A stretch of 64,000 nucleotides of DNA, from contig NC_008278.1 of the NCBI RefSeq assembly GCF_000058485.1, positions 186,001-250,000 of the forward strand. The letters run 5' to 3'. Under the pieces are notes generated by a model. That model searched no databases. It saw only the letters and a program-made list of their open reading frames with translations, and was not told the DNA's origin. Within the stretch, counting starts at the first letter, position 1. Each line of letters starts with the position of its first letter. A program made the translations under genes and the position numbers. This stretch comes from Frankia alni ACN14a (lineage in GTDB: Bacteria > Actinomycetota > Actinomycetes > Frankiales > Frankiaceae). Below, in pieces: positions 9,633-46,007 of this stretch.

Positions 9633-9685
9633 GCGGAATACCCGGCGAGGGACGGGATCCCGCGCGTCACCGCGCGGAATACCCG
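9633..9685. repeat. 12-base direct repeat in a convergent gap
   Basis: GCGGAATACCCG occurs at 9633-9644 and again at 9674-9685, between the convergent LuxR and alcohol dehydrogenase genes. The function is unknown; it flanks the hairpin listed separately. Confidence 0.45.
9661..9676. terminator. Hairpin between convergent genes
   Basis: CGCGCG-TCAC-CGCGCG forms a 6-base-pair stem with a four-base loop, preceded by the palindrome CGGGATCCCG. It lies between the 3' ends of two convergent genes. There is no U-tract, so intrinsic termination is only a possibility, as usual in high-GC genomes. Confidence 0.3.
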
Positions 9686-9725
9686 TCGATCCCCGCCTCA
9701 CCCCGGCGAGATGTCCACCGGCGGT

Positions 9726-24756: not shown

Positions 24757-25404
24757 ATGAGCACACCGACGCCACCCGGCGTCCCGTCCTTCTCCTTCCT
24801 GGGCGCCCGGCCGCGGGCTGGCGTGCGCGGGGACGTCTACGAGCTGAGCTGGGTCGCGACCGGCGCCAGTCGGGTCGAGATCGACGGGTACGGCATCCAC
24901 CCGCCGGAGGGCTCGACGCTCGTCGCCTTCGACGGCACCGTCTCCCGCCGGCTGGCCGCGCGCGGTCCGGGAGGCGTGAGCAACCGGTTCAGCCCGCCGG
25001 TCTGGACTCTCGAGCCGCCCGATCCACGGCTGCCGCGGCGGCCGAATGCCGGTCGCGCGCTGGGCCGCGCCCGGCCTGGCAGCGCTGTGACCACGGTGCC
25101 GCAGGTACCGCGGGCATCCGAGCTGCTGGCCGACGCCGCCCCGCCGTCGCCGGCCGGCGCGGGGCGTGGGCCGGGGCCGGCCGACGGCGGTGATCCGCCC
25201 CGGCTGGCCTGGCAGGCCGCGAACCTTCGTCCGTCCCGGTGGTTCTGGGCGAGCCGTCGCCGCGCCGACGGTGGCGGGCGCGGCTGGGGCCCACCGATGT
25301 GGACGCTCCTGCCGCGCCGCCGGCCCGGCCGCGCAACACCCACCGACGCTCGCCGGGACACTGGCAAAAATCGGGCAAACAGGACAGGACGCCAAGCATC
25401 ATGA
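24757..25404 (+). CDS. Hypothetical protein with N-terminal beta-rich domain
   Basis: 215 residues from ATG 24757, preceded by GGGGAGGG. Residues about 10-90 show alternating hydrophobic strands (DVYELSWVATGASRVEIDGY and VSRRLAARG) like a small beta-sandwich of the kind used to read out voltage-free polar ligands or proteins; no family is recognised. The rest is rich in Pro, Arg and Gly and probably disordered. The stop overlaps the start of the DUF4407 gene (ATGA), making it the first gene of the long operon. Confidence 0.65.
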   Translation: MSTPTPPGVPSFSFLGARPRAGVRGDVYELSWVATGASRVEIDGYGIHPPEGSTLVAFDGTVSRRLAARGPGGVSNRFSPPVWTLEPPDPRLPRRPNAGRALGRARPGSAVTTVPQVPRASELLADAAPPSPAGAGRGPGPADGGDPPRLAWQAANLRPSRWFWASRRRADGGGRGWGPPMWTLLPRRRPGRATPTDARRDTGKNRANRTGRQAS

Positions 25405-27494
25405 CGTTCAGGGAGCGGCTCGCTTCTCCGTTCCGGCTATTCGGTGAGCTCGCGCTGTGGTTGTCCTCAGCCGACATGGAAATCCTGGAGCGGTTCCGGG
25501 CGGACCGGGCAAAGTTTGTCGGCCTCGGCAGCGCCGTAATCATTACTTCCGGGATGGCGGGGTTCTCCGCGGCGTTTGCCGTGCACATGGCCCTGAAGCT
25601 GCCCGTCGTGGCCTGTGTGATCGTCGGCCTGCTGTGGGGTGCCGCGATCATGGCATTCGACCGGTGGCTGGTCGCCACCGCGAGCCGCGGCAACCTGTGG
25701 CTCCTGCTGCCGCGCTTCCTGCTGGCGCTGCTCATCGGCGCCGTCGTGTCGACCCCGTTCGTCCTGCGCGTCTTCCAGCCGGAAATCCTGGACCAGGTCG
25801 CGTTGATGCAGCACACGCGGCAGAGCGACATCACGACGCAGGCGCAGTCCGATTCCACCGGCACCCGGATATCGGCGCTGCAGCTCGACGAGGCGAAGCA
25901 GAACGCGATCATCGCGGCGGGCGGGCCGCCGCTGACCGTCGAGGACGATCCACAGGTCAAGGGCCTCGAAGCCAAGATCGCCCCGCTGCAGGCCAAGTGG
26001 GACCAGGCCAACGAGGCGGTGATCTGCGAGGAGGCCGGCAACAGCAACTGCGGCGTGGCCAGCACGGGCGTCCACGGCGACGGCTTCATCACCGCCCAGC
26101 GCAAGGCCGCGCGGGACCAGATCGGGGCTCAGCTCGATCCGCTGAAGGCCAGCCTCCAGGCCGCACGTGCGGCGGCGACCGTGAACATCGCCCAGCAGAA
26201 GGCGAAGGCCGTCGTGGACGCCCAGCAGAAGGTCAAGGCCGACCGCGCCGAGCTGGCGCGACTCACCCCGATCCAGGACGCGGACACGAAGCGGCGAGAG
26301 GAGGCGAACAACGGCAACACCGGCCTGCTGATCCGGATGGAGGCCCTGAGCGCGCTGACCAAGCACAACCCGACGATGCGCACGACGCACTGGACGCTGT
26401 GGGCGTTCTTCACCGCGATCGAGTGCTTCCCGCTCCTGTTCAAGCTGTTCATGTCGCTGGGCCGACCGACCCGCTACGAGGAGGCGCTGGCCCTGCAGGA
26501 GCGGGCCGACCTGGACGTCTCCCGGCAGCGCACCCGCCGCCAGCGCGCGACGGACCTGCTCAACGACGCCGACCCGCTGGCCGAGGCCCAGGCCGAGCGC
26601 GAGGAGAAGGACACCCAGCTGGCGAGGCTGACCCGACAGACGATCCGGGCCCAGGCGTCGCTCGCCGAGGAGGCGCTCGCGCTGTGGACCGAGCAGGAAC
26701 GGGAGCGGATGCTGGCCAACCCCGGCGAGTACCTGCGCTCCGGCCCGACGGTGTCGCCGCCGCCGCGGTTCGCCTCCCGGGACCAGGCCGCGCCCGACAA
26801 CACCGGGACCGGCGTCGCCCGCCCGTGGCCACCGGCCCCCCGCGAGCAGCCGCGCGGTGCTCGGCCCCGCCCGGCGGCGGGCAGCCGTCCCGCCCGCGGC
26901 CCGGCCCCCTTCGTTGCGCCCACCGGGCCCGTCCCGTCCACCGTCCCTACGACCGTGCCCCCGACGCCGATGGCCGGCACGGAGTCCGTGAACAGCACTG
27001 TGCGTCGCAACGACGCTGTGTCCGGCAACGGCGCTGTGTCCGGCAACGGCGCTGTGCCAGGCAACGGCGCGGAGCCGGCGACCGGGACGGCACCGGCCGA
27101 CGAACCGCCTGGCTACGGCGATGCGGCTGCCGGGCGCGAGATCGACGGTTTCACGGTCGGCCGCATCGACCGTGCCCGGCAGCCGGAAACCGACGCCGAC
27201 GCCGACGCCGACGCTCCGACGGTCGTCCCGGACGGCTCTGTAGGTACCGACAGCTCTGTCGGTTCGGCCGGCTCGGTCGCTCCGGGCGGTTATGCCCCGC
27301 CGGCCGCCTACGGCGTCCCGGCGACGTATGTCGCTCCGGCCGCCTACGACGCGCCAGACAGCGGCGTCCCGCTGGACGGTTATGGCGATGAGGTCACGAT
27401 TGAGCGTGACCTGTCCGAGGAGGAAACCTACTTCCCTGGCCGGAGCCAGCCGCCTCGGCCGGGACGCGGCGAGGACGGCGGCGAGCCGCGGTGA
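25401..27494 (+). CDS. DUF4407 membrane protein with long coiled coil and disordered tail
   Basis: 697 residues from ATG 25401. Three or four membrane segments: two near residues 45-62 and 67-90, one near 100-120, and one near 335-350 after a long soluble helical region. That layout, and the segment MAFDRWLVA between the second and third, match the DUF4407 family. Residues about 130-320 are a charged coiled coil. The C-terminal third (from about 440) is Pro/Ala/Gly-rich with VSGNGA repeats. DUF4407 proteins recur in actinobacterial GTPase/AAA operons and may be the membrane component or effector; the function is unproven. Confidence 0.78.
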   Translation: MTFRERLASPFRLFGELALWLSSADMEILERFRADRAKFVGLGSAVIITSGMAGFSAAFAVHMALKLPVVACVIVGLLWGAAIMAFDRWLVATASRGNLWLLLPRFLLALLIGAVVSTPFVLRVFQPEILDQVALMQHTRQSDITTQAQSDSTGTRISALQLDEAKQNAIIAAGGPPLTVEDDPQVKGLEAKIAPLQAKWDQANEAVICEEAGNSNCGVASTGVHGDGFITAQRKAARDQIGAQLDPLKASLQAARAAATVNIAQQKAKAVVDAQQKVKADRAELARLTPIQDADTKRREEANNGNTGLLIRMEALSALTKHNPTMRTTHWTLWAFFTAIECFPLLFKLFMSLGRPTRYEEALALQERADLDVSRQRTRRQRATDLLNDADPLAEAQAEREEKDTQLARLTRQTIRAQASLAEEALALWTEQERERMLANPGEYLRSGPTVSPPPRFASRDQAAPDNTGTGVARPWPPAPREQPRGARPRPAAGSRPARGPAPFVAPTGPVPSTVPTTVPPTPMAGTESVNSTVRRNDAVSGNGAVSGNGAVPGNGAEPATGTAPADEPPGYGDAAAGREIDGFTVGRIDRARQPETDADADADAPTVVPDGSVGTDSSVGSAGSVAPGGYAPPAAYGVPATYVAPAAYDAPDSGVPLDGYGDEVTIERDLSEEETYFPGRSQPPRPGRGEDGGEPR
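27015..27068. repeat. 18-base tandem repeat inside the DUF4407 gene
   Basis: GCTGTGTCCGGCAACGGC occurs twice exactly (27015-27032, 27033-27050) and a third time with two changes (27051-27068). It encodes the AVSGNG repeats of the disordered tail. Confidence 0.8.
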
Positions 27495-28198
27495 CAGGCG
27501 TCAGCCGGCCCGGCAGCCTTCCGCTCAACGTCGCCGCGACGGCGACGGGCACGCGGGCGCTGGGCCCCGGTGTCCGGTCGGCGGTGTGGGTGCAGGGCTG
27601 CCCGTTCGACTGCGCGGGCTGCGTCGCCCCGGACTGGATCCCGGACCGGCCGGCCCGGGCGGTGACGCCGGAGGTCCTGGCCGAAGAGCTGTGCGCGGAC
27701 CCCGCCGTCGAGGGACTGACCTTCTCCGGCGGGGAGCCGATGGCGCAGGCGGCGGGCCTGGCCGAGCTGATCCGCCTGGCGCGGCTGCGCCGCCCGGAGC
27801 TGTCGCTGGTCTGCTTCACGGGCTACCGGCTGCAGCGCCTGCGTGCGGCTGCGCCGTCGCCCGGCGTCACCGACCTGCTCGCCGCGGTCGACGTGCTCAT
27901 CGACGGGCGGTACGTCGCGGCCCTCAACGACGACCGCGGCCTGCGCGGCAGCTCCAACCAGCGGATCCACCATCTCACCGACCGGCTGCGCGGCGAGGCC
28001 GACTACTTCGACGGCCCGCGCCGCGCCGAGATCCGGCTCGGCACCCGGGATGTCCTGGTCGTCGGCGTGCCGCCGCGCGGCCTGCTCGATGCCGTGGACA
28101 CAGCCCTCAACGGCCCGCCCCGGTCGGGCGCGGGTTCGGCAGTCGCGGCGCCGGGCGGCCGGCCTGCCGAATCGGTGGAGACGGGAGACCAGAGATGA
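27491..28198 (+). CDS. Small radical SAM protein, activase-like (4Fe-4S single cluster)
   Basis: 235 residues from GTG 27491, overlapping the DUF4407 stop. The cluster motif is GCPFDCAGC (CxxxCxxC, about residues 37-44), and FSGGEP (about 79-84) is the SAM-binding loop. Size and motif spacing are those of NrdG/PflA-type activases, which use SAM to generate a radical on a partner glycyl-radical enzyme; no such partner is in the window. Placement inside a tight operon of GTPase, AAA+ and coiled-coil genes suggests it modifies one of those proteins or a peptide. The C-terminal 60 residues are variable and extend past the usual activase fold. Confidence 0.82.
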   Translation: MTGVSRPGSLPLNVAATATGTRALGPGVRSAVWVQGCPFDCAGCVAPDWIPDRPARAVTPEVLAEELCADPAVEGLTFSGGEPMAQAAGLAELIRLARLRRPELSLVCFTGYRLQRLRAAAPSPGVTDLLAAVDVLIDGRYVAALNDDRGLRGSSNQRIHHLTDRLRGEADYFDGPRRAEIRLGTRDVLVVGVPPRGLLDAVDTALNGPPRSGAGSAVAAPGGRPAESVETGDQR

Positions 28199-29790
28199 GC
28201 TGCGTCCAGATCAGCTTCGTGTCGCTCGCCGGCAGCGGGACCCGGGCCGCCAAAGCGGCCCGAGCAGCTCGGGCGGCCCGGGAGGCCGCAGCGGCGCGGG
28301 AGGCGGCGGTGGCCGCGCGGGCGGTGGCTCGGGCGGTGGCCGAGCGCACGCGGGAGGCCCAGCGCCAGGCCGAGGCCATGACCGAAGCGATCCGTGTAGC
28401 CGCCCAGCGTGACCTGGCCGACGCCCTGGGCCCCGTGGAGGCCCGTGCCGCCGCGGCCGAGGCGGCGACCACGCGGTTGTCCGCGGCGGCTGCCCACATC
28501 GAGCGCCAGACCAACGCCCGGCTCGCCGAGCAGGCCCGCCAGATCGCCGGTCTGCGCGTCGAGACCGCCGAGCGGTTCGACGCCGCCCAGCGAGAGTTCC
28601 GGGCGGCGTTGCGGGCCGAACGCGACGGGCGCGAACAGGCGATGGAGTCGCTGCGCGCCGAGATCCGCTCGGCGCGGGCCGGGCGCGGCCTGGCGCTGGA
28701 GGACGCCGGACGCTGGCTCGACGACGCCGGTGTCCTCGTCGAGCTGATCGGCGCCACGCTGCCGCACGAGCGATTCACCCCCGGCCGGCTCGCCGCGCTC
28801 GGGCGGAACCTCGGCCGGGCTCGCGAGAACGTCGAAGCCGGCTTCGCCGAGGCCGCGCTGGCCGCGGCGCAGGGCGTCTACCAGCAACTGTCCGACCTGC
28901 GCGTCGAGGTGGAGTACCTCGACCGGCAGTGGCGCACGCTGCGGGCCGGGGCGCTCGACGCGCTGGGGATCGTCGTGGACCTTCTCGAGCGCGGGGCGGT
29001 CCAGCCGGTGCTGGACGAGGACGGCGACCCGCTGCCCGGCGTGACCCTCGACGTCGACCGCTGGTCCCGCGGCGAGCTGACCGCCCTGCGCGCCGAGGTC
29101 ACCACCCTGCTCGCCGACGTCCGCGCCGACGAGCCAGGGCCGGCCGGGCTGGCTGGGCTGGCCGGGCCGGGCTCGTCGGCTGGGCCGGCCGGGGGCGCGC
29201 GGCGGCTGGACCCGGCCGACCTGCGCGAGGTGGTCGAGACCCGCGCGCCGGCCTACGAGGCGCGCCTGGCCGCGGTCATCGAGGCGGCCGGGACAGCCCA
29301 GCTCGGCTCCCAGCTGCGGGTGTCGATCGCCGACGCCGTCGTCGGGACTCTCGTCGGCGACGGCTTCGTCCTCGCCGACCACACCTACGCCGGCCAGGAC
29401 GACCGCAACGGCTTCTACGCCCGCGTCGAGCACCCCGACGGCGGGATCGTCGTCGTCGACGTGTCGCCGGCCGAGGACGATCCGGGCGCATGCGAACTGC
29501 GGGTCCTCAGTTACGACGACGTCGGGGCCGAGGACATCCGGGCCGACCGGGCCCGCGCGCTCGCCGGCGTGCTGCGCGCGCAGGGGCTCGAGGTCACCGA
29601 CCCGGCGCCCGGGCCGATGCCGGCCGAGGTCGCGCTGCGCGATCTCGACCGCGTCCGGCGCGGACCGATCCCGCGGGAGGCCCCCGCGGCCGGCGGCGGC
29701 CACGGCCATCACCACCAGCAGCACCATCTCCACCACCACCACCACCACCAGCACCAGCACCAGCACCACCACCAGCACCACCAGCACTGA
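28195..29790 (+). CDS. Coiled-coil protein with C-terminal globular domain and histidine-rich tail
   Basis: 531 residues from ATG 28195, overlapping the radical SAM gene stop. Residues about 15-170 form a long Ala/Arg/Glu coiled coil; about 180-320 are helical; about 345-480 form a domain (LREVVETRAPAYEARLAAVI, then DHTYAGQDDRNGFYARV and DVGAEDIRADRA) shared with the next gene. The last 31 or so residues (bases about 29698-29787) are almost only His and Gln. This tail is absent from the neighbouring paralogue. Poly-His could bind Ni, Zn or Fe; it might also be a codon-slippage tract of CAC/CAG. Confidence 0.75.
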   Translation: MSCVQISFVSLAGSGTRAAKAARAARAAREAAAAREAAVAARAVARAVAERTREAQRQAEAMTEAIRVAAQRDLADALGPVEARAAAAEAATTRLSAAAAHIERQTNARLAEQARQIAGLRVETAERFDAAQREFRAALRAERDGREQAMESLRAEIRSARAGRGLALEDAGRWLDDAGVLVELIGATLPHERFTPGRLAALGRNLGRARENVEAGFAEAALAAAQGVYQQLSDLRVEVEYLDRQWRTLRAGALDALGIVVDLLERGAVQPVLDEDGDPLPGVTLDVDRWSRGELTALRAEVTTLLADVRADEPGPAGLAGLAGPGSSAGPAGGARRLDPADLREVVETRAPAYEARLAAVIEAAGTAQLGSQLRVSIADAVVGTLVGDGFVLADHTYAGQDDRNGFYARVEHPDGGIVVVDVSPAEDDPGACELRVLSYDDVGAEDIRADRARALAGVLRAQGLEVTDPAPGPMPAEVALRDLDRVRRGPIPREAPAAGGGHGHHHQQHHLHHHHHHQHQHQHHHQHHQH

Positions 29791-29848: not shown

Positions 29849-31264
29849 ATGAGCGGCGTGAAGCGGACCTATGTGTCGGTCGACCAGACGGCGTGGGCCG
29901 AGGCCCAGCGGGCGGCGGCGCGGCTGCGCGACGTGCGCCGCGACCTGCCCCGGATGGTCGAGGGCGTCCGCGAGCAGGCCCGCCGGGACGCACAGGCGGC
30001 GATCCGGCCGGTCGAGGAACGAGCCCGCGCGGCCGAGCGCCAGATCGCGAAGCTGTCGGCCCGGGCCCGCCGGTTCGAGCGCGAGACCCAGGTCCGGCTG
30101 GATCGGCAGCGTCAGGACCTTGCCGGCCTGCGGACGGACACCGAGAACGCGTTCGCCGCCCAGGAGCGGCAGTTCCGGGCGGCGATCCAGGCCGAGCGCG
30201 CCGCCCGCCAGAAGGCGGTCGACGAGCTGCGCGCGGATGTCGATGCCCTGCGTGACGAGCGGAGCCGGGCGCGGGACGCGGCCCGGGAGTGGATCGCCGA
30301 CGCCGAGGGGCTGGCCACCCTGATCCGCGACACGCTGGCGTCCGAGCGCTTCCGGCCGGGACGGCTCGCCGGGCTGGAGCGTGATGTCGCGACGGCCCGC
30401 CAGAACGTCACGGACGGGTTCGGCGAGGCCGCGCTCACCGCCGCCCAGCGGGCCTACGACGGCCTGTCCGACCTGCGGTACGAGCTGGAGGTGACCGACC
30501 GCGAGTGGCACGCCGCCCGCGACGCGGCCAACGAGGCATTGCTGCTGGTCGGCCGGATCGCGCAGGAGCAGGGCGTCCAGCCGGCCCTCGACGAGGACGG
30601 CCGGCCGATGGCGGACGTCACGCTGGACGTCGACCACTGGTCGAACGGTGAGCTGGCGGCCCTGCGCGCCGAGGTCGAGACGCTGCTCGCCGAGGTGCGC
30701 GACGACAGCCCCGGGGCCGGGCCCCGGGCCGGGCGCGAGGTGACGACCCGCGAGGTGACGACGGACGAGCTGCGCGAGATCGTCGAGGAACGCGCGCCGG
30801 AGCTGGAGGCCCGCCTGGCCGACATCGTCGAGCGGGCCGCGCTGAACCAGCTCGCCTCCCAGCTGCGGGTCAACGTGGCCGACGTCGTCGTCCAGACCCT
30901 CGTCGACAGCGGCTTCGCCCTGGCCGACCACACCTACGCGGGCGAGGACGACCGCAACGCCTTCTTCGCCCGCGTCACGCACCCCGACGGAGGTGTCGTC
31001 GTCGTCGACGTCTCGGCCGCCGAGACGGCCCCGGCCTGTGACCTGAAGATCCTCAGCTACGACGAGGTCGGCGCCGAGAACATCCGGCTCGCCCGCGCCG
31101 AGGAGCTTGCCGCCGCGCTGCGGGCGCAGGGCCTGGACGCGGCGGCACCGCGCGCGGACGCGGCGCCGCCCGACGAGTCGCTGCACCACGACCTGAACCC
31201 CGTCCGGTATGCGCCGCCGGCGCGGCCCGTACCGCTCGCGACGCCCGTGGCCCGGCCCCGGTAG
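29849..31264 (+). CDS. Coiled-coil protein, paralogue of the preceding gene
   Basis: 471 residues from ATG 29849, with GGAGG eight bases upstream. It has the same order of parts as the preceding protein: a coiled coil to about residue 160, a helical middle, then the shared domain (LREIVEERAPELEARLADIV, DHTYAGEDDRNAFFARV, DEVGAENIRLARAEE). The identity is clear but well below that of a recent copy, so the duplication is old. The tail is Pro/Ala-rich and lacks the poly-His of its neighbour. I do not recognise the shared domain. Confidence 0.78.
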   Translation: MSGVKRTYVSVDQTAWAEAQRAAARLRDVRRDLPRMVEGVREQARRDAQAAIRPVEERARAAERQIAKLSARARRFERETQVRLDRQRQDLAGLRTDTENAFAAQERQFRAAIQAERAARQKAVDELRADVDALRDERSRARDAAREWIADAEGLATLIRDTLASERFRPGRLAGLERDVATARQNVTDGFGEAALTAAQRAYDGLSDLRYELEVTDREWHAARDAANEALLLVGRIAQEQGVQPALDEDGRPMADVTLDVDHWSNGELAALRAEVETLLAEVRDDSPGAGPRAGREVTTREVTTDELREIVEERAPELEARLADIVERAALNQLASQLRVNVADVVVQTLVDSGFALADHTYAGEDDRNAFFARVTHPDGGVVVVDVSAAETAPACDLKILSYDEVGAENIRLARAEELAAALRAQGLDAAAPRADAAPPDESLHHDLNPVRYAPPARPVPLATPVARPR

Positions 31265-31270
31265 CGCTCG

Positions 31271-34200
31271 ATGACCGTTCCGACCGACCCGGCGGGCGGC
31301 GGCGGGTCCCCCCGCTCGGCCGAGCGTTTGAGCAGCGCGTTCCGCTACACCGGCGACCCGCTGTTCGTGCTCCACGGCCCCGGCGTGCTCGACGCCCTGG
31401 TCTGCCGCGACTACCTGGAGCGCGACTTCGAGGCGGCCCTGTGGGAGGAGCTGTCCGCCGCGGGCTTCGAGCGCATCGTGTTCTGGACCCCGTGGGAGAA
31501 GGGTCTCTACTTCCGCGACGCCGACTCCTCGGCCGGGCGCCCGCGGGGGACCGGGAGCCCGCTGGGGACCGGGAGCCCGCGGGGAATCGGAGCGAGCGAG
31601 ACGGCGAACGCGGCGGGGCCGGTCCCGCCCCCCGCCGCCCCGGGCGGTCCCGCCGGCGGGACCATGCGCTTCTTCAACGGCCCGATGGGTGCCGTCAACC
31701 GGCTTGGCGCGGGCCGCCTGGGGCCGGGCAGGCCGAGCGGGCCGGGCGGGCCGGGTGCGGGCGCCGCGGTCGGTACCGGCCGCCCGCCGGCGGCGAGCAC
31801 GGTGGGCAGCATGACGGACGGGGCCGCGGTCCGGCTGCTGGCGACCTGGCTCAGCCCGCGCGGCCCGCGCAACCCGCTGCGCACCGCGGCCGTGTTCCTG
31901 TCCACCCCCGAGCTGCTCACCCACCTGAGGCCGGAGGCGGTGCGGCCGTTGGCCGGGCTCTTCGGCGAGCTGACCGGCGGGCCGCGCACCGACCATCTGT
32001 GCGTGCTGATCTCCGGGGAGTCGGACCGGTCCCGCATCATCGCGGAGGTCCGCCGCACCGGCCTGTTCACGACGCTCGCCGACTGGCTGGAGGGCACCGC
32101 GGCGGACGGCTGCTACGGCTACGTCGGGCACGCGCCGCCGGCCGAGATCGAGCGCGCGATTCACCGGACCCGCCTCGTCGACGGGCTGGACATCGGTGAC
32201 TGGGCCGGGCTGCCACGGCTGGCGGCCGCGATGTCGGCCGAGTCGAACGCGACCCGCAAGTGGCTGAGCACCATGCAGTTGTGGGCGCGTGAGCGACGTC
32301 CCCTGGACGGCCCGGAGCTCGCGAAGGCCGGCCATCTCACCGGCGGCTCACCGGACGGGCGCTCCGCCTGGGAGCGGCTCGACGCGATGACCGGCCTCGG
32401 GACGGTGAAGGAGCACGTCCGCCGGCTGGCGGGCGCGACGCGGCTGCTGGCGGCGCGGCCGGCCGGGTCGGGCCGGCGGGCGCAGGCGGGTTCGCACCAT
32501 CTGGTGTTCACGGGTGGGCCGGGCACGGGCAAGACGACGGTGGCCCGGCTGATCGGCGAGATCTACCGGGATCTCGGCATCCTGGCCCGCGGCCACGTCC
32601 GCGCGCCCGAGGTCTCCCAGCTCGTCGCCGGCTACGAGGGTCAGACCGCGATCGCGGTGAACCGGGAGGCCGACGAGGCGCTGGACGGTGTGCTGTTCAT
32701 CGACGAGGCGTATCGCCTGACCGAGCGTCGGGACAGTCCGTTCGGGCAGGAGGCGGTCAACGCCCTGCTGAGCCGGATGGAGAACGACCGTGAACGGCTG
32801 GTCGTCATCGTCGCCGGCTACCAGGGTGAGATGAAGCGGTTCCTGGACGCGAACCCCGGACTGCGCGGGCGCTTCCCCGAAGCGAACATCATCCACTTTC
32901 CCGACTACGAGCCCGACGAACTCACCGACATCCTGCTGCGGAACCTGGCGGACATCGGCCTGACCTGGGAGCCGGACACCGAGGAGGCGTTGCGTACCGT
33001 CGTCGCCGGGATCCACCGGCTGCGTGACGAGCGTTTCAGTAACGCTCGGGAGATGCGTTCCCTCGCCGACGACCTCCAGGCCAACTGGTCCAGCCGCGTC
33101 CAGCGGGCGGCCGGCGCCGTCGACCTGGGCAAGCGTCCCGCCGGGGACGACGGCCGGGCCGCCGCGTGGGCCGCCGAGCAGGAGACCGCCGCGCCGGGCG
33201 ATCTCGCTGCGCTCTGGGAGCGTCCGCTCCTGCGCGCCGACATCCCGGGGCGTTACGCGATGCACCTGCCCGGCCAGGCCCCGCCGATCGACGAGGTCCT
33301 GGCCGGGCTGGCCGAGCTCATCGGGCTTGGGCAGGTCAAGGCGCACATCCGCGAGCTGGCCGGCACGATGCAACTGCTGGCGGCGCGGCCGGCCGGGTCG
33401 GGCCGGCGGGCGCCGGCGGGGTCGCACCATCTGGTGTTCACGGGTGGGCCGGGCACGGGCAAGACGACGGTGGCCCGGCTGATCGGCGAGATCTACCGCG
33501 CGATCGGCGTTCTGCGCCGGGGTCACGTCCGCGCGCCCGAGGTCTCCCAGCTCGTCGCCGGCTACGAGGGTCAGACCGCGATCGCGGTGAACCGGGAGGC
33601 CGACGAGGCGCTGGACGGTGTGCTGTTCATCGACGAGGCGTACCGGCTCACCGAGCGTCGGGACAGTCCGTTCGGGCAGGAGGCGGTCAACGCCCTGCTG
33701 AGCCGGATGGAGAACGACCGTGAACGGCTGGTCGTCATCGTCGCCGGCTACCAGGAACACATGAGGCGGTTTCTGGACGCGAACCCGGGGCTGCGCGGGC
33801 GCTTCCCCGAAGCGAACATCATCCACTTTCCCGACTACGAGCCCGACGAGCTCACCACCATTCTCCTGCGCCAGCTCACCGCCGGCGGCCTGACCTGGGA
33901 GCCGGAGACCGAACAGGCGCTGCGCGCCGTTGTCGCCGGCATGTACCGCCGCCGCGGCGAGGACTTCAGCAACGCCCGGGCCATGCGGTCCCTGGCCGAC
34001 GAGCTGCGCGCCCGGTGGTCCGGCCGTGTCCTGGCCGACGGCGGCCCGGGCGGCGACCCGGCGCGGCTGGCCGCGCTGTGGGAGCGCCCGCTGCTGCCGG
34101 CGGACATCCCCGAGCGCCTCCAACGGGACCTGCCCGGGCGGGTCCCGCCGATCGAACAGGTACTGGCCGCGCTGGACGCGCTGGTCGGCATGGGGCCGGT

Positions 34201-34939
34201 GCGCGCAAGCCTGGAGGCCCTCCAGCGCAGGCTGCGCCACCGCCAGCGGATCGGCGCCCCGGGCGTCGTGGCGCCGCACCTGCTCTTCCTCGGGCCACCC
34301 GGGACGGGCAAGACGACCGTCGCCCGCCTGGTCGGCGAGATGTTCGCGGCGCTCGGCCTGCTCAGCAAGGGCCACGTCGTCGAGGTGAAGCGGGAGGACC
34401 TGGTCGCCGGCTACCTCGGCCAGACCGAGCAGAAGACCAGCGACGCCATCGCCAAGGCGATCGGCGGGGTGCTGTTCATCGACGAGGCGTACGCCCTCGC
34501 GCGGGGCGGCCCGCAGGACTTCGGCCGGGAGGCGATCAACACGCTCGTCCCCGCGATGGAGAACCTGCGCGGGCGGCTCGTCGTCATCGCCGCCGGCTAC
34601 CCCGGCTCGATGCGGGAGTTCCTCGCCGTCAACGAGGGCCTGCCCTCGCGGTTCGGCGAGACGATCGAGTTCCCGGACTACGAACCCAACGACCTGGTCG
34701 AGATCCTGGAGCGGATGGCCGGCGCGGCGGGCTACCGGCTCGACCCGGCGGCCCGCCCGGCCGCCGCCGACTGGTTTCGCCGCCGGCGGGACGCGGACGG
34801 CCCCGCCTTCGCCAACGCCCGCACCGCCCGCGGCCTGCTGGACCGGATGGAGGACCGGCTGACCGCGCGGATGGCGCAGCGGCCCGACGCCGACCAGGCC
34901 GAACTGACCACGTTGACCGAGGCGGACCTGCCCGCATGA
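31271..34939 (+). CDS. Three-module CbbX/SpoVK-type AAA+ ATPase
   Basis: 1222 residues. After an unrecognised 340-residue N-terminal region, three CbbX-type AAA+ modules follow. Walker A motifs are GGPGTGKT near residue 414 and again near 724, and GPPGTGKT near 1008; each is followed by a Walker B FIDEAY (about 473, 783, 1066) and arginine-finger region. All three look competent. CbbX-type ATPases usually form hexamers that remodel a partner through a pore; three modules per chain suggests a dimer of trimeric chains, which is inference. It begins six bases after the coiled-coil gene and overlaps the next gene by ATGA. Confidence 0.9.
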   Translation: MTVPTDPAGGGGSPRSAERLSSAFRYTGDPLFVLHGPGVLDALVCRDYLERDFEAALWEELSAAGFERIVFWTPWEKGLYFRDADSSAGRPRGTGSPLGTGSPRGIGASETANAAGPVPPPAAPGGPAGGTMRFFNGPMGAVNRLGAGRLGPGRPSGPGGPGAGAAVGTGRPPAASTVGSMTDGAAVRLLATWLSPRGPRNPLRTAAVFLSTPELLTHLRPEAVRPLAGLFGELTGGPRTDHLCVLISGESDRSRIIAEVRRTGLFTTLADWLEGTAADGCYGYVGHAPPAEIERAIHRTRLVDGLDIGDWAGLPRLAAAMSAESNATRKWLSTMQLWARERRPLDGPELAKAGHLTGGSPDGRSAWERLDAMTGLGTVKEHVRRLAGATRLLAARPAGSGRRAQAGSHHLVFTGGPGTGKTTVARLIGEIYRDLGILARGHVRAPEVSQLVAGYEGQTAIAVNREADEALDGVLFIDEAYRLTERRDSPFGQEAVNALLSRMENDRERLVVIVAGYQGEMKRFLDANPGLRGRFPEANIIHFPDYEPDELTDILLRNLADIGLTWEPDTEEALRTVVAGIHRLRDERFSNAREMRSLADDLQANWSSRVQRAAGAVDLGKRPAGDDGRAAAWAAEQETAAPGDLAALWERPLLRADIPGRYAMHLPGQAPPIDEVLAGLAELIGLGQVKAHIRELAGTMQLLAARPAGSGRRAPAGSHHLVFTGGPGTGKTTVARLIGEIYRAIGVLRRGHVRAPEVSQLVAGYEGQTAIAVNREADEALDGVLFIDEAYRLTERRDSPFGQEAVNALLSRMENDRERLVVIVAGYQEHMRRFLDANPGLRGRFPEANIIHFPDYEPDELTTILLRQLTAGGLTWEPETEQALRAVVAGMYRRRGEDFSNARAMRSLADELRARWSGRVLADGGPGGDPARLAALWERPLLPADIPERLQRDLPGRVPPIEQVLAALDALVGMGPVRASLEALQRRLRHRQRIGAPGVVAPHLLFLGPPGTGKTTVARLVGEMFAALGLLSKGHVVEVKREDLVAGYLGQTEQKTSDAIAKAIGGVLFIDEAYALARGGPQDFGREAINTLVPAMENLRGRLVVIAAGYPGSMREFLAVNEGLPSRFGETIEFPDYEPNDLVEILERMAGAAGYRLDPAARPAAADWFRRRRDADGPAFANARTARGLLDRMEDRLTARMAQRPDADQAELTTLTEADLPA
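32444..32920 (+). repeat. AAA+ module 1 copy of a long near-identical repeat
   Basis: This DNA matches 33374-33850 (offset 930 bases) almost base for base, from CTGCTGGCGGCGCGGCC to the FPDYEPDE codons, with only scattered changes over about 480 bases. The flanking parts of modules 1 and 2 are far more different, which points to gene conversion or a recent partial duplication. Confidence 0.85.
33374..33850 (+). repeat. AAA+ module 2 copy of the same repeat
   Basis: The second copy of the internal repeat, offset 930 bases from the first. The third AAA+ module (from about 34200) is not part of it and differs at the DNA level. Confidence 0.85.
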
Positions 34940-37062
34940 CGTCCCCGACCCAGCCCAGGGGCCAGTTGGGACCGGTCGATCCCGTCGGTTCCGTCGGTTC
35001 CGTCGGTCCGTTCTGCCCGGTCTGCGAGCTGGCCATCCCGCCCGTGCTCCCCGGCCAGGCCGGCGAGCAGCGCTGCGACGGGTGTGGCTGGACGCTGCGC
35101 GGCCCCGTCCTGCTCGGGCCGCTCACGCCCGAGGTGACCGCCGCGTTCGACCGGCGGCTCGGCGCGGCCAGCCGGGGTTACGACCTGGGCGCCGCGGCCC
35201 GGGTCCTCGCCGCGTTCGGTGACGCCGAGCCGGGCTTGGCCGACGAGCTGGGACGCGCGGTCCGGGCCGGCCCACCGGCTCCGGGCGAGCTCGAGGCCGC
35301 GCGTGCGGAGCTCGCCGCCGCTGCCCGCGCCGCCGGCCGCGGAGCACGGCCGCGCGGCCCGACGCTGACGACGGCGCTGCTCGGCCTCGTCGGCCGGATG
35401 GGCCGGGCCGGACTGGGCGGCGGTGTCCGGCCGGGCGTCGCCGAGGTGACGGCGGATGCAGTGACCCTGTCCGTCGTCGAGGTCGACGAGCTGGGGCTGC
35501 CCGTCGCCCGCGAACTCGTCCGCCGCGACTGGGCGGAGTTGCTCCCCGGCCTGCCGAGCGACCGGCCGACCCGGCTGCTGCGGCTGGCCGGCGGGGTCGG
35601 TCCCGTCGGCGCGGTGCCGTCGGCCGCCGTCGGGGCCGTCACCGGCGCGCTGAGCGCCGCCGGCGTGACCGACGTCGTCGTCGCCTGGCGGCTCGACGAC
35701 GGCTGGCCGCCGCTGGAGCGCTTCGCCGAGGCGCTCGCCGAGCCGGGGGCCTTGCGCGCGAACGTCACCTGGTGCCGGGCCTGGCCCGGCGAGTCCCCCG
35801 CCGCCGTGCTGGCTCAGGCGCCGCTGCCCACCGGGTACGGCCTGGTCGTCGCCGAGGTGGCGCAGGGGAGCCGGAACGTGCGGCTCACGACCGTCCCGCT
35901 GTTCGACGCCGGGCTCGTCGTCGGACCGAACGGGACGCCGTCCGTCGAGGTCACCGTCGGCGCGCCGCGGGGAGGCTTCGAGCTCGCGCTCGTCGTGGTC
36001 GCCCGCCCGGGTGGCACGACGGATCCGGCAGCCTGGCGGCCGGTGGCGATCGGCCGGTGCGTCGCGGCACCGGGCAGCACGCTGCCCGTCCGGGTGGCGC
36101 TCGAGGGCCCCCGGACGGTCCGGTTCCTCGAACCACCCGGGACCCGCTCGGAGCAGGTCCCGCCCGGCGGCTCGGCCGGCCCGGACAGCCCGCTGGCGGC
36201 GTCCTGGCGCGAGCTGCGCGACGGCCAGCCGTCGACCTACGGCGCCGAGCCGCTGGACCTCGTTCTGCTGGTGGAAACCGGCGGGCTCCCCCGGACGGTC
36301 GCGGCGCGCCTGTCGTTGGCCGAGCGGCTGCTGGAGCTGGTCGGCCGCGAGCACCCGGAGCCGGAAGCCGTCCGGGTAAGTGTCATCGGGTACGCCGATC
36401 ACGACGTGCTCGACCCGCTCCGGGCCGGGCAGCCGGTCGTGCGGTCGGTGATCGCCCGTGCGCCCGCCGAGGCCGCAGGGGCGCCGCAAGGGTGGCGGAC
36501 GCCGCACGTCACCGACGTCGCGGCGCCGATCGAGGACGCGCTGCACACGGCGCTCGACCTGCCGTGGCGGCCGGACGCGTACGGTGTCCTGATCACCATC
36601 GGGGCCCGCGGGCCGCACCCGCCGACGAAGCGAGGCGACACCTCGCTGGCAAACGAGTGCGAGTTCGGGCACGACTGGGAGCGGCTGCTACGCCGGTTGG
36701 TGGAGCGGGTCGACCCGGTCCGGATCGCCGCGCGGGGCGGCCTGGACTTCGTCCCGACCGAGCGGAGCAGCGAGGACGTGGGCCGCGCCGAGCGGGCCTG
36801 GGCGGCCCTCGGCGAGCATGGCCAGCTCCCGGCCGGCGCCGGCTACCGGGAACTGGCCGAGCTCGCCGAGCTGCTCGAGGACGGCCCCGCCGGCGCCGGC
36901 CGGCGCGGACGAGCTCTGGCGGTCCCGCTGCTGACGCCGACGCCACCACCGTCCGCCGGGACCGAGCCGGTGAGCAACAGATCCAGGCGGAGCCGTTCGA
37001 CCGGGACGGCCGGCCTGACCGGCGCGACCGGGCCGGCCGGCCCGGGGTGGAGGGTGCCATGA
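34936..37062 (+). CDS. Zinc-ribbon protein with vWA-like C-terminal region
   Basis: 708 residues from ATG 34936, overlapping the AAA+ stop. A zinc ribbon is formed by Cys27, Cys30, Cys47 and Cys50. The middle is beta-rich and unrecognised. From about residue 435 the pattern DLVLLVETGGLPRTVAARLS, then RVSVIGYADHD, resembles a von Willebrand A-like domain: the strand-loop of the MIDAS is present in position, but the DxSxS motif is replaced by ETGG, so metal binding is doubtful. The last 60 residues are disordered. vWA-like proteins commonly pair with AAA+ proteins as here. Confidence 0.62.
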   Translation: MTSPTQPRGQLGPVDPVGSVGSVGPFCPVCELAIPPVLPGQAGEQRCDGCGWTLRGPVLLGPLTPEVTAAFDRRLGAASRGYDLGAAARVLAAFGDAEPGLADELGRAVRAGPPAPGELEAARAELAAAARAAGRGARPRGPTLTTALLGLVGRMGRAGLGGGVRPGVAEVTADAVTLSVVEVDELGLPVARELVRRDWAELLPGLPSDRPTRLLRLAGGVGPVGAVPSAAVGAVTGALSAAGVTDVVVAWRLDDGWPPLERFAEALAEPGALRANVTWCRAWPGESPAAVLAQAPLPTGYGLVVAEVAQGSRNVRLTTVPLFDAGLVVGPNGTPSVEVTVGAPRGGFELALVVVARPGGTTDPAAWRPVAIGRCVAAPGSTLPVRVALEGPRTVRFLEPPGTRSEQVPPGGSAGPDSPLAASWRELRDGQPSTYGAEPLDLVLLVETGGLPRTVAARLSLAERLLELVGREHPEPEAVRVSVIGYADHDVLDPLRAGQPVVRSVIARAPAEAAGAPQGWRTPHVTDVAAPIEDALHTALDLPWRPDAYGVLITIGARGPHPPTKRGDTSLANECEFGHDWERLLRRLVERVDPVRIAARGGLDFVPTERSSEDVGRAERAWAALGEHGQLPAGAGYRELAELAELLEDGPAGAGRRGRALAVPLLTPTPPPSAGTEPVSNRSRRSRSTGTAGLTGATGPAGPGWRVP

Positions 37063-38066
37063 TCGACGTGCGGATCGGCCTGTGGGGCGCGCCGAGCAGC
37101 GGGAAGACAACCCTGCTCGCGGCGTTGCCCCTGGCCGCGCAACAGTCCCGGACGCCGGGTGACAGCTGGAACGTCTTCGGGGCCGACGCGCGGGCGACGT
37201 CCTGGCTCAACGAGGAGGTCGGCCGGCTCATGGGTGGCCGGTTCTCGCCCGCGACGGCGCTCAGCACCCGGCTGAGCCTGGTCATCGCGGGCGAACGTCA
37301 GCCGGACTACGGCACCCGGGTGCTGCGGACCCGCATCACCGTCGACGTGCTCGACGTGCCCGGGGACCTGTTCCAGCAGGGCGTGGTCGTGGGGGCCGCG
37401 GGGGCCGAGGGGGCCGCGCAGGAGGTGAGCTTCGACGGCGCGCCGGCCGGCGGTGGTGGGCCCCCGGTGGCCAAGCAGGCGAGCGGCTACGAAGAGCTCC
37501 TGCGGCACCTCACCGCCTGCGACGGGATCATCCTGCTGTTCGACCCGATCCGCGAGATTCGGGACCGGAACAGCTACACCGCCTTCAACGCGGTGCTGAG
37601 CGAGCTGCTCCAACGTTGCTACCAGGCCGGGCGGGTGCAGGGCGGCAAGCTGCCCCACCACCTGTTCGTCTGCGTCACGAAGTTCGACGACCCGCGGGTG
37701 ATGAACGCGGCGCTGACTCCGGGTGAGCTGGCGGAGCTCAGCCGGCGAGCGGCTCCCGTGATCGACCAGTCGATCGCGGGGCGGTACTTCGACCAGCTTG
37801 CCGACCGACCCGGCACCGGCGCCGGCCACGTCCGCGCCGCCATCCGTTCGGCGTTCCGGCGCGAACGGGTCGAGTTCTACGCGACGTCCTCGATCGGCTT
37901 TCGGGCCGGGCCGGGCCGGCCCTTCAACCCGCATCACTATCAGAAAACGGTGCTCACCCAGGGTGAGACGCGCATCGTGGGCGAGGCGGCGCCGGTGGGG
38001 GTCCTGGAGCCGTTCCTGCGGATGGCGGGCAAGATCACTCGTCAGCGTGGCGGGCCGGCGGCGTGA
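37059..38066 (+). CDS. TRAFAC-like GTPase of a conflict system (DO-GTPase type)
   Basis: 335 residues from ATG 37059. The P-loop is GAPSSGKT (10-17), the G3 motif is DVPG (99-102) and the base-recognition motif is TKFD near 208, so it should bind GTP. The GLWGAPSSGKTT and DGIILLFDPI segments match the GTPases that occur with GAP1-type partners in actinobacterial NTP-dependent conflict systems. A second, related GTPase lies at 46008-47426 on the other strand. The following gene is its likely partner and overlaps by GTGA. Confidence 0.82.
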   Translation: MIDVRIGLWGAPSSGKTTLLAALPLAAQQSRTPGDSWNVFGADARATSWLNEEVGRLMGGRFSPATALSTRLSLVIAGERQPDYGTRVLRTRITVDVLDVPGDLFQQGVVVGAAGAEGAAQEVSFDGAPAGGGGPPVAKQASGYEELLRHLTACDGIILLFDPIREIRDRNSYTAFNAVLSELLQRCYQAGRVQGGKLPHHLFVCVTKFDDPRVMNAALTPGELAELSRRAAPVIDQSIAGRYFDQLADRPGTGAGHVRAAIRSAFRRERVEFYATSSIGFRAGPGRPFNPHHYQKTVLTQGETRIVGEAAPVGVLEPFLRMAGKITRQRGGPAA

Positions 38067-41000
38067 ACGGGCCCACCGGCACGGTCGAGCTCGACTGGGC
38101 ACTGTTCAGCAAGCGGCCTGGCCAGCGCGACGACTACACGGTCATCGCCGCAAGCGCCGCACGCGTCCGCCCGGCCAGCCTCGCAAAAATGATCACGTAC
38201 TTCGCGGTCGGCCAGCCGGCAGGTCCGGCGCCGGGCCAGCCGGGGGCGCTGCCCTGGGTCACCTTCACCGCGGCGACCGTCAGCGGCACCCCGTACATCG
38301 GCATCGCGATCAAGGAATGGCCGGCGGCACCGACCACGGACGCCACCGGCCGGATCATCGTCCCGACCCGGTTCTTCTGCCTTCCCGAGGTCGACTTCCA
38401 CCGGGAGCTGGGTAGCTACCTCGCCTTCCACGACGCCGTGCGCGACGTGGCGCCCGACGGCCTGCCCAGCCAGATCGGCACCGGCCTGCTCGCTCTGCGG
38501 GTCAGCCGCCTCGACCGGCGCACCGTGCTCGCCTCGCCCGCCTGGGAGCCGGTCGGCGCCGGCCGCGCGGCCAGCCTGCGCGCCGCGCTGGCCACGGCGG
38601 CACTGCTCGTCGAGCGACCGGTGACGCTGACGCCGGCGCGCGTCGTCGACCTGCGAGCGCGAGTCTCCTACCTGGATCTGACCGCCGCGATGCTGCCGGC
38701 GGGAGCCGCCGGTGCGCTGGCCGCCAGCACGTGGGCCGATGTCCGGGCCAGCCAGCAGGTGCGGCTGGCGTTCGGCGACGACCTGGGCGCGGGTGAGGCC
38801 GCCCGGCTCGACCCGGCCCGGCCGCCGAGCCTGCGCCAGCTCGCCACGGCTTCCGGCACGGGCGGCGCCACGGCTGCCGGCGCTTCGACGATCGGCGCCA
38901 CGAATGCGGGCGGCCGCTACGCCGCCGTGCTGGCCCATCTCGTCGGCGCCAGCCGGTCGGCGCCGGGCGGCGAGGACGAGCCGGCGACCGAGCGGCTGCT
39001 GACCGGCCTGGTCGAGGCGCTCGCCGCCGACCTGACCCCGCGGGCGTTCAGCCGCCCGCAGGAGTTCGCCGAGCACCTGGCGGTGACCGCGGCGACGAGC
39101 CTGGCCGCAGCCGTCCGCTCCGGCAGCCGGAGCCCGCGTGACGCCCGCGGCTACCTGGCCTCGATGCCGGTCGGCTCCGACCCGTCCCAGTGCCTGTTTC
39201 CCCTGCTCCTCGACGGTCCCGAGCCCGACGACCTGCGTCTCGCGCTGCGGCAGTGGCCCGGGCCCGGCGTGGCCGGCTCGACGCATCCGGCGACGGCGCT
39301 GGTGCGCGCGTTCGTCGGCGCCGGCGTGCCGGTGGGGATCATCGAGGAGCGGTTGACGGACGCGCCGACCCCGGTACGCGCCGCGGTCGTCGCCGCCCTG
39401 CTGGAGCCGCAGTCCGGCGAGACCGCGCCCCGCGAGGACGCCGTCAACCTGGCCGCCGAGCTGATCCGCGGCAGCCAGCCGGGCCGGGACGACGACGACT
39501 GGGCCGCCGTGCGCTCCCGGCTGCTCGCCGCGCCGGAGCTGGCCCTGCTGATCGTGCTCCGCCACATCGAGGCACGCCCCGGCGTCGGCCTCAACAACCT
39601 GTTCCGCTGGCTGGAACCGGGGCCGTCGTCGCGTACGGCCGGCGTCCTGAAGCCCTACCGGCTGCTTGCCGACAAACGGCCGCCGGCCGCGGCCGACCTC
39701 ACCACGCTCACCCTGGTCGACCCGGCGGTGGTCGATCGCGCGATGCAGGCGCTGGTGAGCCTCGCCGCCGCCTGGCGGCTGCCCAGGTACGTGCTGCCCG
39801 CCGTCGGCGGCTGGCTGGAGACCGAGACCCAGTCCGGTCAGCTCCACTTCGGGCCGCGCCGCAAGGAGGAATGGCGGGCGCTGCTCGAGCGGCTGGACGA
39901 GGAGCGCGCCGAGCGGGACCGGTTGCTGCGCCTGATCGGCGCCCTCCCACCCAAGCAGTCGAAGTCGCTGCTCAAGGGCGGGAAAGGACGGAAGGCGGCC
40001 CCCGTCACCGTCGCCCTCGGTTGGCTCGGCGGCACCCAGGCCGTGCTGCGGACGGAGGACCGGGCGCTGACCGAGCTCGTCCTGAGCCACCTGCCCACGG
40101 TGACGGACGCGGACCCCGGCGCGGCCCGCTCGCCCGGCGAGCCCGACGCGACCGAGCTGTCCTTCGCCGGGGACGGTGCCGGGGTGGCGGTCGCGATCGC
40201 ATACTCGGCCTCCGGCGGCTGGCGGGCCGGCCATACCGAGTTCGCCCCCTTCGTCGCCGCCGGGGGGCGGTTGGTCGAGTTCTGCGAAACGGTCCACACC
40301 CGCCTGGAGACCGGCGGGGAGCCCGGCAGCATGACCCTGCCCGGCGTGGCGGATCCCCTGGTCGTCGCCCGGCTCGCGGGCGAGGTCGCGGCGTTCGGCT
40401 TCGCGGCCGTCGCCCGGGTCGCCGCCCGGCTGCTCGAGGGGCCGGTCGTGATCGTCACCGGGCCGGACCGGCCGCCTCTCCGGCAGCGCCTGACCTTCCT
40501 GCGGGCCGTGTTCGCGCTGCTGCCCGCGGGCGTGTCCGCCTCGATGACCGTCGCGACCTGGGCGGCGGACCCGTCGCCGTTCCGGCTCGCGTTCACCGCG
40601 CGGACGCCGAGCACCGACACCACCGCTGTCAGGTGGCCGCCCCGGCCGGACGACGGGTTGCACGGCCTTGCCGGCATCTACGCCGACCGGCTGGGCTGGG
40701 CCCGGGCGCTGAGCGAGGGCACGGAACCGATCGTCGGCCAGCTCGCCGCGATGACCGACGCGGTGACCCTGGACGACCTGGCGGACCGGCTGGCCCTCGT
40801 CGGCGGTGCCAACCAGGCGTTCGGGCCGCCAGGGGAGTCCCGGCCGGTGGCGCTGGCCACGGCGAGGGAACGCCGCCGCGCGATCCTGGCCGGCCGGGCC
40901 GACACCGTCGAGGCCATGGTCCGCGCGCTGGTCGTCCTGCTTGCCGACGGCGGGGTCGCCGATGTCGAGGCGGCGTACCGGCTCGCCGACCGGGCCCGGC

Positions 41001-41758
41001 AGCAGGGCCGGCTCGACGACGTTCTCGCCGCCCTGCTCCGGCGCTCGGAGGCGGACCGGGAACGGCTGGCCCGCGTCCACCGAGGCGCCGTCCGGCTCGG
41101 GCTGATCCTCCCCGGCGAAGGCCTCAGACTCGTCCTGCGCGAGGCGCTGCAGGCGACACCGGCGGCCGCCGTCCGCCTGCTCGTCCAGCTCGACCTCGAC
41201 GGCCGTGGACCCGGCGAGCTGGCGGAATGGAGCCGCTGGCTGCGCGCCGACGGCCAGCTCGCCGACCTCGCCGCGTTCGACGCACTGCTGGCCGACCAGC
41301 CCGCCAGCGAGGCGGCGAGGACCCGCGCCGAGGCCTACGGGCCGGACGCCCGGGCGCTGCTGCAGCGGCTCGCGCCCCGCGAGTCGGCGGTACCCGCGCC
41401 GCCGGCGGCCCGGCTCCCCGAGCCGGCGGCCACCGAGCGGTCCGATGCCGTGCCCACCGAGCCGGCGCCCACCGAGCCGGCGCCCACCGAGCCGGCGCCC
41501 ACCGAGCCGGCGCCCACCGAGCCGGCGCCCACCGGTGCCGTGCCCGGTGTGCCGCCGCCTGCCGAACCGGCGGGGGTCGCCTCGGCCGGGTCCGGCGGCT
41601 GGGCCGGTGACGGTGCCCAGGCCACCACCGCCCACAGCGCCGGCGGTCCGGGCGAGCAGGCGGTGGCGGGCACCAACCCGGACGAGCCGTGGCGCAGCAG
41701 CGGCTGGCGGCCCGGCGGCTGGTCGGCCGGCGGTCCTTCGGGGGGAGCGGGCTGGTGA
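38063..41758 (+). CDS. Large GTPase-associated protein (GAP1-like)
   Basis: 1231 residues from GTG 38063, overlapping the GTPase stop. The N-terminal 250 residues (WALFSKRPGQRDDYTVIAAS, then LPWVTFTAATV and IVPTRFFCLPEVDF) correspond to the N-terminus of the reverse-strand protein at 43863-45995, and the internal segment FLRAVFALLPAGVSASMTVA matches LLDAVAALLPFGQRAQLVAS there. Both fit the GAP1 (GTPase-associated protein 1) family. The middle is helical. The tail is disordered with five TEPAP repeats and a Gly/Trp-rich end. It probably senses or regulates the GTPase; no enzyme motif is seen. Confidence 0.75.
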   Translation: MNGPTGTVELDWALFSKRPGQRDDYTVIAASAARVRPASLAKMITYFAVGQPAGPAPGQPGALPWVTFTAATVSGTPYIGIAIKEWPAAPTTDATGRIIVPTRFFCLPEVDFHRELGSYLAFHDAVRDVAPDGLPSQIGTGLLALRVSRLDRRTVLASPAWEPVGAGRAASLRAALATAALLVERPVTLTPARVVDLRARVSYLDLTAAMLPAGAAGALAASTWADVRASQQVRLAFGDDLGAGEAARLDPARPPSLRQLATASGTGGATAAGASTIGATNAGGRYAAVLAHLVGASRSAPGGEDEPATERLLTGLVEALAADLTPRAFSRPQEFAEHLAVTAATSLAAAVRSGSRSPRDARGYLASMPVGSDPSQCLFPLLLDGPEPDDLRLALRQWPGPGVAGSTHPATALVRAFVGAGVPVGIIEERLTDAPTPVRAAVVAALLEPQSGETAPREDAVNLAAELIRGSQPGRDDDDWAAVRSRLLAAPELALLIVLRHIEARPGVGLNNLFRWLEPGPSSRTAGVLKPYRLLADKRPPAAADLTTLTLVDPAVVDRAMQALVSLAAAWRLPRYVLPAVGGWLETETQSGQLHFGPRRKEEWRALLERLDEERAERDRLLRLIGALPPKQSKSLLKGGKGRKAAPVTVALGWLGGTQAVLRTEDRALTELVLSHLPTVTDADPGAARSPGEPDATELSFAGDGAGVAVAIAYSASGGWRAGHTEFAPFVAAGGRLVEFCETVHTRLETGGEPGSMTLPGVADPLVVARLAGEVAAFGFAAVARVAARLLEGPVVIVTGPDRPPLRQRLTFLRAVFALLPAGVSASMTVATWAADPSPFRLAFTARTPSTDTTAVRWPPRPDDGLHGLAGIYADRLGWARALSEGTEPIVGQLAAMTDAVTLDDLADRLALVGGANQAFGPPGESRPVALATARERRRAILAGRADTVEAMVRALVVLLADGGVADVEAAYRLADRARQQGRLDDVLAALLRRSEADRERLARVHRGAVRLGLILPGEGLRLVLREALQATPAAAVRLLVQLDLDGRGPGELAEWSRWLRADGQLADLAAFDALLADQPASEAARTRAEAYGPDARALLQRLAPRESAVPAPPAARLPEPAATERSDAVPTEPAPTEPAPTEPAPTEPAPTEPAPTGAVPGVPPPAEPAGVASAGSGGWAGDGAQATTAHSAGGPGEQAVAGTNPDEPWRSSGWRPGGWSAGGPSGGAGW
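41461..41535. repeat. 15-base tandem repeat in the GAP1-like gene
   Basis: GCCGGCGCCCACCGA is repeated five times without a break (last copy with one change), encoding EPAPT units in the tail of the protein. Such perfect repeats are prone to slippage, so copy number may vary between strains. Confidence 0.9.
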
Positions 41759-45995: not shown

Positions 45996-46007
45996 GGCGC
46001 CAGCCGC

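Follow-up and report, generated by a model that had tools for sequence, protein, structure and literature searches.

The gene at positions 31271-34939 of a 64,000-nucleotide stretch of the Frankia alni ACN14a genome (contig NC_008278.1, positions 186,001 to 250,000; hereafter, the window) encodes a protein with three CbbX-type AAA+ modules in one chain, which we call A1, A2 and B for modules 1, 2 and 3. We consider it probable that this gene descends from an ancestor with one A and one B module, that the A module was duplicated and its core later converted, and that the product is a ring chaperone encoded in a cassette (radical SAM, coiled-coil and AAA genes) that is plugged into a GTPase gene cluster. 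Coordinates of all features are collected in Table 1.

A previous sequence-only reading of the window had proposed three CbbX-type modules in one chain, all with intact Walker motifs, and our searches bear this out. Pfam recognizes the AAA family (PF00004) and the AAA_lid_6 family (PF17866) three times each in the 1222-residue protein, and a motif check located Walker A, Walker B (LFIDEA), a sensor-1 GY, an NxGLxxRF motif and a sensor-2 Arg in A1, A2 and B. Traits used as criteria for the SpoVK-CbbX-EccA clade are present in every module: the sensor-1 Tyr (as AGY), the Asn upstream of the first Arg finger (NPGLRGRF in A1 and A2, NEGLPSRF in B, a motif read from the sequence), and the sensor-2 Arg (F-x-N-A-R-x-x-R-x-L). 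These traits, as well as the module sequence and a variable N-terminus, are shared with the clade as it is described in PMC10659427. Judged by these motifs, the product is a predicted AAA+ chaperone of the SpoVK-CbbX-EccA clade, and A1, A2 and B each look capable of ATP binding and hydrolysis.

The protein differs from SpoVK and CbbX, which have one module (CbbX chains in the PDB are 289-309 residues long), in having three modules and an N-terminus without a known domain. With the SpoVK equivalog model (TIGR02881), A1, A2 and B score 194.8, 196.2 and 239.6 bits, all below the cut-off of 422.95. The model for the CbbX Rubisco activase (TIGR02880) scores 537 bits against a cut-off of 459.25, a whole-protein value that sums three modules. 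Neither Pfam (best E 0.18) nor a search of solved structures (best E 0.056) returned a match to the N-terminal region.

The repeat formed by A1 and A2 is a mosaic. The sequence-only reading had noted that modules 1 and 2 share about 480 nearly identical bases at an offset of 930 and that module 3 is distant, and alignment agrees on both points. Over a core of residues 391-550, A1 and A2 match at 454 of 480 bases (26 differences, 94.6%) at that offset, and B has 64% DNA identity to either of them. Beyond this core, the identity of A1 to A2 drops sharply; in the lid (residues 551-612), it is 73% for DNA and 68% for protein, compared with 0.94 for the core protein. Runs of identical bases in the core extend to 119, 106 and 77; when the positions of the differences were shuffled 10000 times, a run of 119 never arose.

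Silent sites follow the same boundary. The 160 core codons hold 11 silent differences and 9 with a residue change. Between A1 and A2, the core differs at 8 of 94 fourfold sites and the lid at 13 of 30 (Fisher p=5e-5); where the residue is identical, so is the codon in 140 of 151 cases for the core and 31 of 53 for the flanks (p=7e-8). The silent divergence between the two lids is near the level seen between genomes: compared with the orthologue in Frankia sp. CiP1_Cm_nod1 (G255), fourfold sites differ at 13 of 20 (lid) and 33 of 69 (core) for A1, and at 13 of 23 and 37 of 70 for A2.

Because silent sites in the lids are diverged and the cores are nearly identical, the core of A1 and A2 looks to have been homogenized after an older duplication of the modules. 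The earlier suggestion of a recent gene conversion or duplication thus holds for the core; it does not hold for the duplication itself, given that 43% of fourfold sites in the lid differ. The A1-A2 linker repeats that between A2 and B (58 of 73 bases match, at an offset of 864), and the simplest route to such a copy is unequal recombination of the start of A with the start of B. We propose that the ancestor would have consisted of the N-terminal region, one A-type module and one B-type module. In the window's lineage, A would have been duplicated, most simply by such an exchange, and later gene conversion would have re-homogenized the AAA core of A1 and A2, with the lids and upstream helices left diverged.

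The same combination of a near-identical core and diverged flanks could arise from a recent duplication after which a divergent relative supplied new DNA for the lid or linker, the core never having been converted. We regard this as unlikely, because the imported pieces would have to match both flanks of one module, and no donor was found: a DNA search of the genome itself gave no second close copy (next best, 71%). Also quite unlikely is a recent plain tandem duplication whose lids diverged rapidly under selection, without gene conversion. Such a history accords with the lower protein identity of the lid, and AAA cores are always better conserved; however, the silent sites of the lid have diverged too, which selection at the level of residues does not explain.

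Module number differs between species, with two modules in both other intact orthologues and modules deleted in two more genomes. The CiP1_Cm_nod1 orthologue is an intact protein of 979 residues with one A and one B module, and that of Frankia sp. QA3 (G003) is a two-module frame whose N-terminus lies in a different reading frame. In a tree of modules, A1 groups with A2 (100/98), next to the single A modules of these two orthologues, and B clusters with the B modules of the same proteins (99/99). The simplest reading of these sequences would be a module gain in the window's lineage. The QA3 gene (L021, 13752-16668) is split across two frames in the Gly/Pro-rich linker, which reflects either a real frameshift or a sequence error.

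The sequence-only reading had called the architecture unusual. When TIGR02881 was used to count modules in 118 Actinomycetes genomes (E cut-off 1e-25, at most 19 candidates scored per genome), 99 matches were found in 75 frames, of which 53 have one module, 20 have two and 2 have three. The three-module arrangement is therefore rare, although it is not unique, and tandem pairs are common. Besides the window's own frame, the other three-module frame lies in G083 (L042, about 8204-10672). Its product resembles the window protein in carrying three modules on one frame (1287 residues), but the Walker motifs are degenerate to differing extents (GRPGTGKS with LLVDDAS; GSPGTAKT; GSPGTGRA), the modules are dissimilar to each other, the N-terminus is different, and tblastn found no cassette neighbors. 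Two-module AAA proteins of Streptomyces and Frankia share tandem CbbX-type modules with the window protein (approximately 40-44% identity over modules 2 and 3), but differ in N-terminal domain and neighbors and fall in separate clades. Some of these relatives are annotated as "right-handed parallel beta-helix repeat" and lie beside ESX genes. Multi-module CbbX-type proteins also occur in fungi and oomycetes. The window gene is not described in the available portions of the literature on tandem or triple CbbX-type AAA proteins, on gene conversion in AAA+ chains or in Frankia, or on DUF4407 with radical SAM.

The ESX neighbors of these relatives raise the question of a type VII secretion chaperone of the EccA type. 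Two-module relatives adjoin ESX genes on Streptomyces plasmids, and the whole-protein score with the EccA model (TIGR03922) is 591.6 against a cut-off of 466.65, though three modules are again summed. We nevertheless find such a role very improbable, because eight neighboring proteins gave no match to an Ecc family in NCBIfam, the N-terminus has no TPR or other Pfam domain, and the window modules fall in clades separate from the ESX-linked pairs. An assembly artefact, to which repeats of about 95% identity are prone, is most improbable, given that the two copies differ at 26 of 480 sites and sit in diverged surroundings, that no stop interrupts the frame, and that the genome forms a single contig of 7,497,934 bp.

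Table 1. Features of the AAA+ gene and its neighborhood, in window coordinates.
Feature	Position	Strand	Evidence or remark
Small conserved protein, 215 residues	24757-25404	+	Ig/FNIII-like by eye only; no Pfam family
DUF4407 protein	25401-27494	+	PF14362, E 4e-78
Radical SAM / 4Fe-4S protein, cassette gene 1	27491-28198	+	PF13353, E 4e-34
cc1, coiled-coil-like, His-rich C-terminal tail, cassette gene 2a	28195-29790	+	
cc2, coiled-coil-like, paralogue of cc1, cassette gene 2b	29849-31264	+	52% identity
AAA+ gene, three CbbX-type modules, 1222 residues	31271-34939	+	Open reading frame list, Pfam, motifs
N-terminal region, family-specific, long Gly/Pro-rich stretch (residues ~1-364)	31271-32362	+	No Pfam family
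Module A1 (residues ~365-612)	32363-33106	+	Walker A 415, Walker B 474, Arg-finger motif 528, sensor 2 589
Homogenized core of A1	32441-32920	+	Partner tract in A2 at 33371-33850
Linker A1-A2	33264-33336	+	Copy of linker A2-B
Module A2 (residues ~675-922)	33293-34036	+	Walker A 725, Walker B 784, Arg-finger motif 838, sensor 2 899
Linker A2-B	34128-34200	+	
Module B (residues ~956-1222)	34136-34936	+	Walker A 1008, Walker B 1067, Arg-finger motif 1121, sensor 2 1180
Conserved protein, N-terminal CxxC/CxxC zinc-ribbon-like motif	34936-37062	+	vWA-like by eye only; no Pfam family
GTPase 1, DO-GTPase-like	37059-38066	+	GxxxSGKTT and TKFD
Large protein downstream of GTPase 1	38063-41758	+	GAP1-like by position only
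Second GAP1-position protein	43863-45995	-	PF20014 (GAP1-M), E 0.046, below cut-off
GTPase 2, convergent copy	46008-47399	-	Start approximate

The AAA gene is the sixth in an array that runs from the small conserved protein through the DUF4407, radical SAM, cc1, cc2, AAA, zinc-ribbon-like, GTPase 1 and large-protein genes to two further genes, and that faces, on the minus strand, the genes for GTPase 2 and the second large protein. Start and stop codons overlap at five joints (within 25395-28204 and 34930-38072); these tie together 24757-28198 and 34936-41758, with cc1 and the AAA gene in between. The two pairs of GTPase and large-protein genes face each other (43863-47399 on the minus strand, 37059-41758 on the plus strand), and the N-terminus of the 38063-41758 protein is homologous to the 43863-45995 protein. 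Gene order is identical in QA3 and CiP1_Cm_nod1, except that each has one coiled-coil gene rather than two. In an unrooted tree of the four coiled-coil sequences, cc1 and cc2 group apart from the other two (100/99). The zinc-ribbon-like protein (34936-37059) gave no relative in a pattern-limited scan of genome contigs with the single sequence; with a three-row alignment as query, such a scan picked out two loci, in CiP1_Cm_nod1 and QA3.

Some local features were also observed. The cc1 tail (29698-29790) is rich in His and Gln (GHGHHHQQHHLHHHHHHQHQHQHHHQHHQH) and has no counterpart in cc2 or the two orthologues. A (PAPTE)n repeat lies at 41456-41533, near the C-terminus of the 38063-41758 protein. 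On the minus strand, 22638-23723 falls narrowly short of the cut-off for a Macro domain (PF01661, E 2.7e-4), and a small open reading frame at 18061-18468 resembles a PIN-domain toxin by eye only.

The cassette has a narrow distribution. The coiled-coil neighbor, used as query, matches the same three genomes (the window's, QA3 and CiP1_Cm_nod1) whether the 35 genomes of the family or the 393 of the class are searched. The N-terminal region of the AAA protein was found in the window's genome and QA3 only, among 13 genomes of the genus; against 396 genomes of the phylum, a sample that may have lacked QA3 or CiP1_Cm_nod1, its alignment returned only the window's own match.

The GTPase is more widespread: a search with its profile gave matches in 30 of the 393 genomes from the class, including 19 of 35 Frankiaceae. 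These 19 loci comprise three with the cassette (G000, which is the window's genome, G003 and G255), two with deletion remnants, ten with no trace of it, and four (G011, G009, G001 and G006) that lie on short contigs and stand outside the verdict on presence or absence. In G293, a draft contig with N bases, the remnants correspond to radical SAM residues 3-75 and to residues 40-197 of the CiP1_Cm_nod1 AAA N-terminus, with no module. In G171, the AAA N-terminus (residues 4-87 of the alignment) runs, by eye, into an apparent AAA C-terminus. In four genomes (G050, G331, G068 and G347), GTPase 1 and the zinc-ribbon protein are retained and no cassette gene is detectable by tblastn at E 1e-3, and in six (G111, G012, G002, G008, G005 and G004) tblastn found neither that pair nor cassette genes. 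At six Frankiaceae loci, only the minus-strand pair of GTPase and large protein and the DUF4407 gene were found. Judging from the remnants and the cassette-free GTPase loci, the cassette is an accessory block of the larger GTPase gene cluster and was lost at least twice.

What the cluster itself resembles is suggested by several remote similarities. A structural model of the GTPase (predicted local distance difference test, pLDDT, 67) has MglA as its best match (3t1t, E 2e-5), and the DO-GTPase families in Pfam match below cut-off (PF19993, E 2e-4 to 0.13; PF19975, E 0.0014-0.24). A profile of 19 GTPase sequences, aligned by hhalign to two P-loop frames at a Streptomyces-like GAP1 locus whose true GAP1 genes are recognized by PF20014 (E 5e-25 and 8e-20), gave 97% probability, with E 7e-11 for one target. 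Controls gave 23.5% for AAA modules and 0.1% each for coiled coils and GAP1, in a set without another GTPase family. On a Streptomyces plasmid, relatives of the zinc-ribbon protein, the GTPase and the large protein precede genes for a vWA protein and a protein kinase, a layout described for part of the GAP1-N2 systems in PMC7159879. There, a GTPase with an adjoining large downstream protein and filamentous hosts are also shared features, and the plasmid relative with vWA and kinase genes fits the third theme. Unlike those systems, the window cluster has no GAP1 recognized by profile. PF20014 matches two orthologous large proteins below cut-off (E 0.046 and 0.028) and no others scanned, and hhalign of the large proteins to two true GAP1 proteins gave less than 1%. 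As to an FNIII-repeat component (N2 type), 24757-25404 matched no Pfam family. With PADLOC, the AAA protein drew only generic AAA matches and the two GTPases weak mad8 ones (E 0.009 and 6e-4). In the text of PMC7159879, CbbX does not occur, and radical SAM occurs once, for a different subsystem. Given the sub-threshold Pfam matches, the profile alignment and the plasmid layout, the GTPase may be a distant relative of the DO-GTPases in GAP1 conflict systems; we would say that the cluster works like these systems and may be kin to them, not that it is one.

The likeliest function of the protein would be that of a dedicated ring chaperone serving a complex of the GTPase cluster, perhaps acting on the coiled-coil protein. 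Clade members that have been studied act as dedicated chaperones with variable N-terminal domains, according to PMC10659427. The modules would assemble as stacked or pseudo-hexameric rings for ATP-driven remodeling of a dedicated partner, with the coiled-coil protein encoded alongside as the most probable client; the radical SAM protein would modify a partner. The cassette would plug into a GTPase cluster that is membrane-linked and broadly of the DO-GTPase/GAP1 kind. That its genes are found together in three genomes, and were lost together or nearly so elsewhere, counts in favor of treating them as a unit.

Several results weigh against parts of this account. The tree program warns of long branches meeting near module B, and a tree built from lids only does not resolve A1 and A2 as sisters; a duplication before the species split, with losses elsewhere, would also be compatible with the sequences. 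A stricter run test on codons (longest run, 39) lends weaker support to conversion, as that length was reached in 171 of 10000 shuffles. The choice of the coiled-coil protein as client is drawn from gene neighborhood alone. AlphaFold2 gave no usable model of the N-terminal region from three sequences (mean pLDDT, 38). By eye, that low-confidence model has an alpha/beta pattern, for which the inactive N-domain of Ycf46 may be a parallel.

A broader and more doubtful proposal is that the cassette is an undescribed, removable layer of a GTPase-centered surveillance or conflict system in filamentous actinobacteria, in which A modules duplicate with their coiled-coil partner. The ratio of A modules to coiled-coil genes is 2:2 in the window and 1:1 in the other two intact loci, and each A module would accordingly serve one coiled-coil partner.

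The history that we favor, in which A was duplicated and its core later converted, would provide a dated case of tandem AAA+ module gain, with a linker-mediated duplication followed by conversion of the catalytic core while the lids remain distinct. The deletion remnants would mean that a component of a GTPase cluster has been kept or shed repeatedly inside one family. If the pairing of modules with partners is true, it would represent client-driven growth of an AAA+ chain.

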